Positions 52,062 through 58,514 of a DNA stretch of 62,382 nt are shown in pieces. A program made the position numbers and the translations under genes. The notes beneath the pieces are model-generated. The model was not told the DNA's origin. It worked only from the letters and a program-made list of their open reading frames with translations, and searched no databases. The stretch comes from Pseudomonadota bacterium (GTDB taxonomy: Bacteria > Pseudomonadota > Gammaproteobacteria > Competibacterales > Competibacteraceae), in assembly GCA_030917925.1 (NCBI GenBank), contig JAUPTV010000129.1, positions 1-62,382 of the forward strand. Reading direction: 5' to 3'. Within the stretch, counting starts at the first letter, position 1, and every line of letters begins with the position of its first letter.

Positions 52062-52415
52062 ATGTCTGCCAAAGCAACTTCTTCAATTCAAGTGATTGCC
52101 CGGGCAGCCCGGTTGCTGGATACCCTCGCAGCCCACGATGAACCGGTCAGCCTCAAAACGTTATCCACCACGACTGACCTGCATCCCTCAACGGCATTCC
52201 GCATTTTGGCGTCGCTGATCGAGCACGGTTTTGTCGAACGCAGCATGGCCGGTCACTACCGACTGGGCAACCGGTTACTGCAACTAGGCAACCGTGCGCA
52301 AGGCCGTATCGACCGCTGGTCCGTGAGTGGATCTGCCCGGCCCGAGGAACTGAATGTCGCCGTTCATGCGTCCCGATCCTTGCCGACGCCAGGCGAGCGG
52401 GAGATAGCGAGATAG
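52062..52415 (+). pseudogene. Truncated IclR-family regulator (DNA-binding domain only)
   Basis: Residues about 8-78 are a good IclR winged-helix domain (IQVIARAARLLDTLAAHDEP; LKTLSTTTDLHPSTAFRILASLIEHGFVE is the helix-turn-helix region). After residue ~85 the expected ~170-residue effector domain is missing. The frame continues through what may be a deleted fragment (SARPEELNVAVHAS) and ends at a TAG inside an 8-bp tandem repeat. A full promoter precedes it, so a 117-residue DNA-binding protein might still be made. Most likely a decayed regulator. Confidence 0.7.
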
Positions 52416-55189: not shown

Positions 55190-55480
55190 TTAAGGTTGCT
55201 CCGTCGGTGGGCTGGGCGCGGCATCACGGGTTCCGGGAATACGGTCTGACTCCGCTATCCCCGGCTTGGACGGCTCTTCGGACTCATGGATCTCCGAGCG
55301 CTCTACGATGGCGATCAATCCGATGATGAGCGCCAGCCATATCAGATAGAGGTAAAAATACAGCAGCGGGATGCCGAACGGTGCCCATGACCGGTTAAAC
55401 AATTCCAGCACGGGATAGTTAATGGCCAGAACAGCGCCGATGAACAGGATAATGATATATTCCCGGGATTGTTGACGCAT
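55190..55480 (-). CDS. Two-TM small membrane protein coupled to the sensor kinase
   Basis: A 96-residue protein with two hydrophobic helices (IIILFIGAVLAINYPVLEL and LLYFYLYLIWLALIIGLIAI), then an acidic/Pro-rich cytoplasmic tail. The stop TAA abuts the ATG of the SSF-kinase gene. Small two-helix subunits accompany some SSF transporters, so it may be an accessory subunit of the sensor. Family not certain. Confidence 0.75.
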   Translation of the reverse strand: MRQQSREYIIILFIGAVLAINYPVLELFNRSWAPFGIPLLYFYLYLIWLALIIGLIAIVERSEIHESEEPSKPGIAESDRIPGTRDAAPSPPTEQP

Positions 55481-55528: not shown

Positions 55529-57625
55529 CTAGAAATTCGCCTGAGTTTTGCGAATTTCTACCATCTTGTCCGAGACTTCCATCGCCTGGCCAAGGGTAGC
55601 AATGCCCTGTGCTTCCAGTAGGTCCAGCAGTTTCAAAAACACCTGCGCGGTCACCAGTGAATCGCCCAGGGCGGTATGGCGGTCATGCACATCGACGCCC
55701 AACCGGTCGGCGATGGCGTCGAGGTTGTGATCGTCAGTGTAGTCGTGCAGATAGCCGGACAGCAGCAGGGTGTCCAGTACGGGATTGCCGAACCGCACCC
55801 CGGTTTTCTCCTCCTTGAGCTTGAGGAATTTCATGTCGAATGCCGCGTTGTGCGCCACTAGCACGGTTTGGTCATCGCCCACAAATGCCCGGAATTGCGG
55901 CAGCACGGTGCCTATGCCCGGCTTGTCCTGCACCATGTCATCGGTGATGCCGTGAAAGCGGATTGACGCCTTGGGAATGGGTCGGCCCGGATTGACCAGT
56001 TGGTCAAAGCTCTCTCCGACCAGTAGTCGGCGATTAACGACACGCACGCCAGCAATCTGAATAATTTCATCGCCCTTGGACGGTGCCAGGCCCGTGGTTT
56101 CGGTATCGAACACGATATAGGTGAGGGCGCTCAGTGGGTAGTTGAGCAAATCTCCCCATTCTTGACGATGTTCCGCCAGCGAAAAGTCGTAGAACTCCGG
56201 ACGCTCCGGCAAATCTTTCGGCGGCTCGCGCCATTGCCGGGTCGAGGCCGGCAAGGGCAGGCGCAGCAAGGCATGACCAGGGCGACGGTGGAATTGGCTC
56301 CAGATGTCGCTGTTGTGGCGGCGCAGCACTTCGCTCACCGTGGTCGCTCCGACCAGATCCTCGACATGTTCGCTCAGCCAGTCTTCCAGTTGATCGGTCG
56401 GCAACGGGTGGCCCGGCCAGATGACGTCCAGATAAACCTGGCGATTGCCCAGCAAACACTCGATCTCGAATGTATCGCTGATCCCGTGCGATTGCAGATA
56501 TTCGAAAGTGCGCTCAAGCAGCAGCATGATGGAGTGGTTATCCACATTCAGCCAGAGCGGGGAACCCAGGGTCTTGATCTGAAGAGGGGTGCGTTTCTCC
56601 AGGTGGTGGATCACGCTGCCGATCAGATCCGCGGAATAGACATCGTTCATCGGCCAGCGGCTGGCGTACAAATTGCGCAGGTCGAGCGTTAATTCCTGCA
56701 AGCGCTGACTCAGCCGTTCGCTTTCCTCGAAGATCACCCGCTGGAAGGCTTCTCGCTGCGCCTGATCCATATCGCCAAAATGCATGACCATTTCCGCCGC
56801 CGCCCGCAGATTGGCCAGTGGCTGGCGCAAATCTTCGGTGCGGGTTTTGATCAGCGACCGGTCGATCTGCTGAGTCACATCGCGGAAGGTGATGACGAAA
56901 GCGGAAGCACGTTCCGCAGTCCCCGGCAACAGGCTCATCCGGCAGTGAAACAGGGTTTCGTCATCAGTGGTGGCGCAAACGAATTCGGCATCACCGGCGG
57001 GTTTGCCTTCACCGCTGGTTTGTTGCCGGTAAAGCAACAGTTGCAGGGTGCTTTCAATTGGGGCGCGGGTCCAGAAATCATACAGTGAGCGACCCAGGCC
57101 GAGCGTATCGCGGTTCGGCAGCAACTTCACTGCCGCCGGGTTGTAGAGCATGAGCCGCGCATCGCTATCGCAGACCAGGACGCCTTCCGACAGTTCACGC
57201 AGCACCGTTTCCAGCCGGGCTTTCTGTTCCTCGATTTCCTGGGTGCCGGTCGCGGTGGCGGCAGCGACGTCGCGCCGAGCATTGTGCAACGCCTCGCCCA
57301 GATCCAGCAGGCGAGCCGGGAATTCGCCCAGCCAGTGCTGTTTGGGCAATTCCAGGGTGTAGCCGGGATTGCTGCGGGTAATGATCCGGGCGCCCCGCGC
57401 CAGGGCACCAAGTGGAATAAAGCAATGCCAGTCCAGCAGCGACCAGATGGCCGTGATGCTACCGACGATGGCGAACGCGGCCAGCATCAGCCAGAGCAGG
57501 ATCAGATCACGCTGTTCAGGGTCAGGAACGACCTGGAACACCTGCCAGCCAATCCAGACCAGCGCGGCCAGGGTCAGGACGGCGGGAATCAGCCACAGCA
57601 GCCAGATCCGGGTCCGGTAACGCAT
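55529..57625 (-). CDS. Membrane PAS / pseudo-histidine-kinase / DEDDh 3'-5' exonuclease fusion
   Basis: A 698-residue protein. Two membrane helices (about 8-30 and 42-62), a coiled-coil-like linker, a PAS domain (about 137-250, [19 protein letters not shown]), and a kinase dimerisation-like helix pair where the H-box reads [19 protein letters not shown]: Glu replaces the phospho-His and no ATPase boxes are visible. The last ~200 residues are a DnaQ-type exonuclease: VFDTETTGL (about 507), AHNAAFD (about 592-596), HTALGDS (about 650-656), all catalytic residues present. Architecture is far from DNA polymerase III epsilon. Operon with RR upstream and SSF-kinase downstream. Confidence 0.88.
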
Positions 57626-57631
57626 AACGGT

Positions 57632-58006
57632 TTAACTGGCCTCCGCCAGAAGTTCGCGAACCCGCTCCACGACTTCCTGCGTGGAAAACGGCTTGGTGAT
57701 GTAGTCATCCGCGCCGAGCGCCAGCCCCTTTTCCCGTTCGACCTCGCGGCCCTTGGCGGTCAGCATGATGATGCGGATCGCTTTCCAGTCAGGGTTAGCG
57801 CGGATCGCCTGACAGACTTCATAGCCGTTCTTGCGCGGCATCATCACATCCAGCAGCACCAGATCAGGCTGCTCGGCGGTAATGGCGGTCAGCCCGGCTT
57901 CGCCATCCGAAGCGGTGCGCACCTGGAAGCCCGCCTGCTTCATCAGAAACTCCAAAGACAGAACGATGTTGGGTTCATCGTCCACTACCAGTATTTTGTT
58001 GGCCAT
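57632..58006 (-). CDS. Single-domain response regulator
   Basis: A 124-residue CheY-like receiver without an output domain. Acid pocket D9-D10, phospho-acceptor D53 (VLLDVMMPRKNG), Thr in IIMLTAKG, and Lys in DDYITKPFS. ATG 58006 is supported by GGAAGGG. It begins the operon that continues with the exonuclease/pseudo-kinase fusion (6 bp gap) and the SSF-kinase, its probable phospho-donor. Confidence 0.94.
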   Translation of the reverse strand: MANKILVVDDEPNIVLSLEFLMKQAGFQVRTASDGEAGLTAITAEQPDLVLLDVMMPRKNGYEVCQAIRANPDWKAIRIIMLTAKGREVEREKGLALGADDYITKPFSTQEVVERVRELLAEAS

Positions 58007-58046: not shown

Positions 58047-58373
58047 TTATGCGGAATTTCCGTTGTCGTTGCGCCCTGTCCCCGACTCTGACGAAACATC
58101 GGTTTTCCGATCTGTTGCGTCCTTGGCCGACAGCGGGTTTCCTCCACTGGCCTTGGCGACGGCTTCCCAGAATTTTTGCACCATTTCCATCGAGTGAAAT
58201 TGGGTCGGCAACAGCGGCTTCATCAAGCCCAGGGCATCAAAGTTGATGACGCCACGCTGTACGCTATCGCGAACGGTTTGCAGAATATCATCATGCAGGG
58301 GCTGCACGTTGGGCAGGCCCAAAAACTCGCGCATTTCCTGGGCGGTGGCTTCAACGCTAACATTCACTTTCAT
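58047..58373 (-). CDS. DUF6489-like small protein
   Basis: A 108-residue protein starting MKVNVSVEATAQEMREFLGL followed by a helical middle (MEMVQKFWEAVAKASGG) and a disordered, charged C-terminus. The first 30 residues resemble DUF6489, conserved small proteins of unknown function in proteobacteria that make storage polymers. GAGGAAG lies 5 bp before ATG 58373. 40 bp upstream of the response regulator start, so it may lead that operon. Confidence 0.65.
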   Translation of the reverse strand: MKVNVSVEATAQEMREFLGLPNVQPLHDDILQTVRDSVQRGVINFDALGLMKPLLPTQFHSMEMVQKFWEAVAKASGGNPLSAKDATDRKTDVSSESGTGRNDNGNSA

Positions 58374-58514
58374 CAAGACTTCCTCGTGCTGCGGGATCGC
58401 CGGTTGGGCAATGGAACTATGGAATTCAAGGCTGCTTATTCACTAAAGAATAGCAGGAACATCATTGAGTACTAGCACCGGACAGAGTTAAAGTGTTTTC
58501 TGCCTGACCTAATT

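Follow-up and report, generated by a model that had tools for sequence, protein, structure and literature searches.

A predicted receptor-type exonuclease with a degenerate histidine-kinase core, encoded beside a symporter-type sensor kinase in a Competibacteraceae genome

The window considered here is the whole stretch of DNA that was analysed, 62,382 nucleotides long (contig JAUPTV010000129.1 of assembly GCA_030917925.1), from a Pseudomonadota bacterium assigned to the Competibacteraceae. Its minus strand carries, in this order, a REC-only response regulator, a fused exonuclease gene, a gene for a predicted 96-aa membrane protein and a symporter-type sensor kinase (Table 1). The fused gene starts 6 bp downstream of the regulator gene and lies upstream of the kinase gene, on the same strand, in agreement with the two-component operon that a previous sequence-only reading of this DNA had described. 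The 96-aa protein had no Pfam match at E<=0.1; the small gene cbrX, which precedes cbrA, is similarly placed. Two further reading frames were noticed nearby: just upstream of the regulator (58047-58376, minus strand) a small DUF6489-like protein, which scored 21.1 bits against a cut-off of 23.6 and is also present in close relatives, and at 52062-52415 on the plus strand an ORF whose translation, judged by eye, resembles an IclR-type regulator in its N-terminal half and which may be a truncated gene.

Table 1. Positions in the window of the fused gene, of its parts and of the neighbouring genes
Feature	Position	Strand	Basis
Fused gene, TM-PAS-pseudo-histidine-kinase-DEDDh exonuclease, 698 aa	55529..57625	-	ORF and Pfam; layout common to 81 aligned proteins of at least 600 aa
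N-terminal membrane helices, residues 3-84	57374..57619	-	AF2 helices 3-32 and 36-84; hydrophobic stretches by eye; predicted topology
PAS domain, residues 143-253	56867..57199	-	Pfam PAS_4; alpha/beta elements 148-249 in the AF2 model
Pseudo-DHp helix pair, residues 257-323, Glu264 at the phospho-His site	56657..56857	-	Sub-threshold HisKA; His in 0/81; hhalign with the neighbouring kinase
Degenerate HATPase-like CA domain, residues 326-460	56246..56650	-	hhalign, AF2 domain model, structure matches; no Pfam HATPase
Linker motif RPEFYDF, residues 475-481, nearly invariant	56183..56203	-	Alignment of 81 proteins
DEDDh 3'-5' exonuclease domain, residues 502-672	55610..56122	-	RNase_T match; PolC and E. 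coli epsilon structure matches
REC-only response regulator, 124 aa from MANKILVV	57632..58006	-	Pfam Response_reg; mechanical ORF to 58147, start chosen by analyst
Small predicted membrane protein, 96 aa, between exonuclease and sensor kinase	55190..55480	-	Membrane nature by eye
Sodium:solute-symporter-type sensor histidine kinase, 907 aa	52466..55189	-	HisKA and HATPase above cut-off (Pfam)

The fused ORF has no internal stops. In Pfam searches of the protein, PAS_4 scored 29.8 bits over residues 143-253, above its cut-off of 23.1, and RNase_T (PF00929) scored 124.5 bits over residues 504-663 (cut-off 24); HisKA stayed below its cut-off at residues 264-319 (17.5 vs 26.9 bits), and no HATPase match was obtained in the fused protein at E<=10. 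The full-length AF2 model, built on 66 aligned sequences (pLDDT 82.3), comprises helices 3-32 and 36-84, the PAS region, a helix pair at residues 267-323, an alpha/beta domain and the exonuclease; its pTM of 0.47 makes the arrangement of these domains uncertain. The PAS domain and the two-helix membrane anchor of the sequence-only reading are thus both recovered, the latter as predicted N-terminal helices.

Homologues were collected with six peptides of the window protein. From the best 80 of the 586 loci with a relative we took 78 proteins of at least 600 aa, which were aligned with the window protein and with two paralogues from its own genome (both on contig C83, 45% and 38% identical to it), so that the set comprises 81 proteins. 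Two partial sequences (L055, L065) were left out, and two whose N-terminus runs off the contig end (L030, L041) were kept. The 81 proteins are not a random sample and include some near-copies; conservation of the exonuclease is somewhat favoured in them, because the peptides came from the window protein and two of the six from its exonuclease part. All of them have the same layout, and this rules out a frameshift or an assembly error joining two genes, which the earlier reading had named as a possible flaw. In the linker, R475, D480 and F481 are present in 81/81 proteins, E477 and Y479 in 79/81 each and P476 in 77/81. As judged from these matches and alignments, the window protein is a sensor-kinase frame (membrane hairpin, PAS, DHp and CA, the hairpin being predicted) to which an exonuclease is joined via a conserved linker. 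A phage origin was also considered and rejected: 69 phage records match, none covers 80% of the query, and the five matches listed correspond to the exonuclease part.

The fused family is widely conserved in bacteria and is found in several proteobacterial classes. Among the matches listed, the closest relative is 89% identical, in a MAG named Proteobacteria bacterium, followed at 79-82% identity by Candidatus Contendobacter and other Competibacteraceae entries. Close homologues also occur in four contigs labelled as Nitrospirae/Nitrospirota, Nitrospira or Desulfobulbaceae MAGs (L025, L032, L035, L075), by transfer or by misbinning. We scanned 249 Pseudomonadota genomes with a profile, A1, built from 66 family sequences; at a threshold of E<=1e-60 it matched 32 of them. 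In four of these 32 genomes (G067, G099, G131 and G197, all of family f49) the match is confined to the exonuclease part, and the proteins, 465-476 residues long, are without the kinase core. Two of these four short proteins, scanned for PAS, had no Pfam match for it; about 95 residues still align with the PAS stretch.

The kinase part was described by the sequence-only reading as a kinase-like helix pair in which Glu takes the place of the phospho-His. The replacement stands: at residue 264, the phospho-His position, His is found in none of the 81 proteins and Glu in 62, and the AF2 model has a helix pair there. What that reading missed is the CA domain that follows. The profile of residues 255-475 aligns end-to-end with the DHp-CA core of the adjacent sensor kinase (hhalign, 99.1%, E 4.3e-19), and residues 335-472 alone still align with the core of that kinase (93.9%, E 1.5e-7). 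Since structure comparison of the full AF2 model listed exonuclease matches only, residues 326-472 were modelled separately (pLDDT 94.1, pTM 0.87); the best solved matches of this model are kinase CA domains, namely CusS (Z 14.6, 2.5 A over 125 residues), PrrB (Z 14.6) and DivL of Caulobacter (PDB 4q20, Z 12.5 over 125 residues). The aligned N-box Asn and the DxGxG motif are replaced, and other residues, e.g. W403-x-G405 and H437, are conserved where the ATP boxes would be. Neither the H-box phospho-His nor a HATPase_c domain with N and G boxes, which mark a sensor histidine kinase, is therefore present, and no intact HATPase emerged from the Pfam profile search; the degenerate CA domain at residues 326-472 was recovered by hhalign and by the separate model. 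Profiles and models agree in predicting a whole DHp plus ATPase-like CA core that has lost the phospho-His and the ATP-box residues, i.e. a DHp-CA fold of the DivL type.

The exonuclease, in turn, looks intact. The window protein has the catalytic motifs DTETTG, HNAAFD and HTALGD, and D507, E509, D597, H650 and D655 are identical in 81/81 proteins; with the RNase_T score given above, this upholds the complete DEDDh exonuclease claimed at the outset. In the AF2 model its fold matches the PolC exonuclease (Z 24.6), E. coli epsilon (Z 21.2) and RNase T (Z ~18), so that among solved structures the exonucleases of DNA polymerases come nearest. It shares fold and catalytic residues with DnaQ and PolC; it differs from them in having no polymerase context and in being attached to a predicted membrane receptor.

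The neighbourhood of the fused gene is conserved. Among the best 80 of the 586 loci, the regulator lies directly upstream of the fused gene in 64, and the neighbourhood includes a symporter-type kinase in 53, a CBS-DUF294 gene in 52 and a symporter in 29. At L030, which is cut at the exonuclease, no neighbour genes are seen, and at five other loci (L023, L024, L055, L066, L067) the regulator only. Where at least 5 kb of flank is available on both sides, a symporter-type kinase, a symporter or DUF294 is present in 43/43 loci, the kinase in 36/43 and the upstream regulator in 33/43; the 43/43 figure depends on this cut-off, as it becomes 45/46 at 4.8 kb, 47/48 at 4 kb and 53/54 at 3 kb, the exception being each time L067, with the regulator alone. 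Homologues of the regulator have at most 23 residues after the REC match in 73 hits of more than 100 bits, and its phospho-acceptor Asp is kept in 73/74 rows. As to the two paralogues of the window's own genome, the first closes the order DUF4212, symporter, Yip1-domain protein, CBS-DUF294, exonuclease, the second adjoins ActP and DUF485, and no regulator was found near either.

The association with DUF294, a predicted nucleotidyltransferase, is closer than chance would give. Every one of the 32 A1-positive genomes also gives a strong DUF294 match (E<1e-30), which lies within 10 kb in 30 of them (coordinates compared by eye), against a chance expectation of about 0.7 genomes on the generous assumption of four DUF294 genes per genome. 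In the two exceptions, DUF294 lies at about 12 kb (G215), or the one match that is listed sits at a large distance on the same contig, a second match being unlisted (G220). On the contig of the window copy itself no DUF294 was found; the strong matches of its genome are on contig C21 and on C83, there beside a paralogue. The nucleotidyltransferase motif GSxxRxE...DQD is kept in 81 of the 84 distinct DUF294 proteins of at least 470 aa. A symporter-type sensor kinase, a single-domain regulator and a CBS-DUF294 protein with an intact nucleotidyltransferase motif are thus the recurrent companions of the fused family; its ties to symporters, to a REC-only regulator and to DUF294 had escaped the sequence-only reading.

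Of the 217 A1-negative genomes, 64 likewise have a strong DUF294 match (counted by eye). We hand-picked 20 DUF294 loci from 20 of these 64 genomes and found an unfused exonuclease beside DUF294 in 18, a fusion in a single polypeptide in one and no exonuclease in one. In G203 one 704-aa protein (L129, 4534-6648) holds an exonuclease, two CBS domains, DUF294 and DUF294_C, and such exonuclease-CBS-DUF294 fusions occur in three of the 115 genomes of its class (G203; G298, locus L136; G332, locus L137), those of L136 and L137 adjoining a symporter and a DUF4212-like gene; at L138 the 20 kb read contained no gene of those sought. The pairing extends, it would seem, beyond the phylum, as suggested by a table footnote of PMC3412718 that gives an operon with DUF294 and dnaQ in Bacilli. 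Among the unfused exonucleases beside DUF294 (L110-L128), Glu replaces Asp at the third acidic site in 11/18, and this DEEDh variant might mark a different substrate. In a tree of 55 of the 117 exonuclease domain rows, whose deep forks are weak (68/61), the 18 unfused DUF294-linked exonucleases fall on the other side from the fused ones.

The nearest studied case is that of PP_0353 and PP_0354 of P. putida (PMC9927547). PP_0353, an RNase_T exonuclease, shares an operon with the CBS protein PP_0354, and ErdR, of the symporter-type MxtR/ErdR system, binds its promoter; this operon and its link to ActP and a symporter-type kinase are the points of likeness. Deletion of PP_0353 or of actP-I impaired or delayed growth on pyruvate (the PP_0353 mutant still reaching wild-type density) and deletion of PP_0354 did not; on acetate neither PP_0353 nor PP_0354 mattered. 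The same kind of linkage, to CBS-DUF294 and to a symporter or symporter-type kinase, is found for the fused family, the window copy having only the symporter-type kinase. PP_0353 is treated in that work as a stand-alone exonuclease, whereas in the window protein the exonuclease is joined to membrane, PAS and pseudo-kinase parts, and PP_0353, which was not included in the tree, may not be a close functional stand-in because fused and unfused exonucleases do not group there. Action on imported DNA, one of the roles offered by the sequence-only reading, is not supported by the neighbourhood, which is one of transport and signalling of the organic-acid symporter type, and the unfused PP_0353 made no growth difference with added DNA in P. 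putida (PMC9927547).

Related systems have been described elsewhere. CbrA/CbrB and CrbS/CrbR (MxtR/ErdR) have, like the window operon, a sensor kinase with a sodium:solute symporter domain (PMC5715377, PMC5436829); their regulators act on transcription, whereas that of the window is REC-only and has an exonuclease receptor in its operon. Pflu5625, a cAMP-binding/CBS/nucleotidyltransferase protein of the CrbS/R study, was predicted to act by nucleotidylation (PMC5715377), and DUF294_C, present in the DUF294 partner, is listed with the GlnD/GlnE C-terminal domain (PMC3710099). PMC9765439 gives PA3232-PA3235 as up ~16-fold during growth on propionate and PA3233-PA3235 as down ~2-fold after propionate addition. 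Measured nucleotidylation by DUF294 is not reported in the literature passages covered. In open PubMed Central we found no paper on an exonuclease-PAS-histidine-kinase fusion, on a pseudo-histidine kinase with an exonuclease or on DUF294 with an exonuclease, and none proposing that an exonuclease opposes a nucleotidyltransferase.

As the regulator is without an output domain, it needs a protein target, and by analogy the adjacent dead DHp would be a natural candidate. DivL is a kinase core without phospho-His, and its partner, the single-domain regulator DivK, docks on it; DivL has Tyr at the phospho-site and no enzyme output, whereas the window protein has Glu at that site plus an exonuclease. 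The REC-only regulator may dock on the dead DHp bundle in the same way, to which we would give an even chance. Gene adjacency, seen in the 64 of 80 loci mentioned above, is consistent with such an association. In the pseudo-DHp, the positions that we count as facing the regulator vary less (0.76 bits) than the core (1.52), a gap that is absent in the neighbouring kinases (0.49 and 0.52); this comparison was made after seeing the conservation, and its support is weak. Six f49 loci in which the pseudo-kinase/DHp stretch is shortened or absent (L096-L101) lack a REC-only regulator within the 17-19 kb covered, and two that keep the DHp stretch (L106, L107) have one; this contrast comes from one family and may represent one or two events. 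Retention of the H-box Pro or Glu was discarded as a marker of docking: in 73 rows, the 80 less seven whose upstream flank is short, neither residue was associated with a neighbouring regulator gene (Fisher p 0.51 and 0.12). Eleven of the 73 rows are without an adjacent regulator, both paralogues of the window's genome among them.

We judge it fairly probable, from domain content and gene context, that the window protein is, as the sequence-only reading proposed, a signal-controlled exonuclease, working within a symporter-kinase/regulator/DUF294 circuit. Our best explanation, to which we give slightly better than even chances, is that of a receptor-controlled exonuclease, gated by its PAS domain and by the regulator on the dead kinase, which would oppose the nucleotidyltransferase in the control of organic-acid uptake. 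Precisely, the sensor kinase would respond to a small organic acid and phosphorylate the REC-only regulator; the docked regulator, together with the PAS domain, would switch the exonuclease; the exonuclease would remove 5'-nucleotides that the DUF294 enzyme puts on an RNA 3' end or on a protein; and the exonuclease/DUF294 pair would set the activity of the symporter or of carbon uptake. DEDDh enzymes release 5'-nucleotides, and in nucleotidylated proteins the 5'-nucleotide and tyrosine are joined by the same type of bond on which these enzymes act, so that, in principle, an RNA tail or a mark on a protein might be removed by a single enzyme. That the exonuclease opposes DUF294 on a shared substrate is a tentative element of this explanation, and the DUF294 linkage could reflect shared regulation only. 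Somewhat more doubtful still is its most specific form, a reversible nucleotidylation switch in which CBS-DUF294 would write a 5'-nucleotide on the symporter, on its small partner or on an RNA 3' end and the DEDDh exonuclease would erase it. The P. putida phenotypes on pyruvate, delayed growth without PP_0353 and none of it without PP_0354 (PMC9927547), go in the direction that an eraser that is needed and a writer that can be spared would give, which is suggestive only.

Part of this evidence may be read in other ways. The exonuclease could trim mRNAs or sRNAs of carbon metabolism at the membrane, under the control of the PAS domain and the regulator and with no substrate shared with DUF294. 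DEDDh enzymes include RNase T and oligoribonuclease, and the structural match to RNase T would fit such a role, as would the speculation of the authors of PMC9927547 that PP_0353 degrades mRNAs of central metabolism or of transporters; however, the tight link to a nucleotidyltransferase, which reaches the level of gene fusion, would stay unexplained, and we regard RNA trimming as possible rather than probable. A less likely case is that the pseudo-kinase only dimerises or localises a constitutive housekeeping exonuclease, for DNA repair or oligonucleotide salvage, with no signalling: four f49 proteins (L096-L099) have lost the pseudo-kinase and keep an N-terminal part and the exonuclease, and the nearest folds are those of DNA polymerase exonucleases, but the pseudo-DHp and CA domains keep conserved residues, and genes for a sensor kinase and a regulator accompany that of the fused protein. 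A residual signalling protein in which a dead exonuclease only binds nucleotide or RNA as a ligand is very improbable, since the five catalytic residues are invariant in the aligned fused proteins, even if unfused relatives vary at one catalytic position.

The outputs of known kinase-type receptors are mostly DNA binding, cyclic-nucleotide enzymes and chemotaxis. Kinase-derived receptors, DEDDh exonucleases and symporter-linked signalling are each already known, and the combination found here is a variant of them; its gene context suggests a little-studied nutrient signalling circuit. If the eraser-and-writer reading were true, a DEDDh exonuclease would act as a de-nucleotidylase of proteins and correspond to GlnD's HD domain: GlnD carries this eraser itself, whereas in the window family the candidate eraser is the exonuclease, which in the window's lineages would be wired directly to the membrane via a dead histidine kinase that a single-domain regulator reads. 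A kinase-derived receptor whose output is an exonuclease, an enzyme that recurs next to a predicted nucleotidyltransferase or in one chain with it, would point to a layer of post-transcriptional or post-translational control, so far uncharted, in uptake of the acetate/pyruvate type, and it bears on the unexplained exonuclease gene in the acetate regulon of P. putida.
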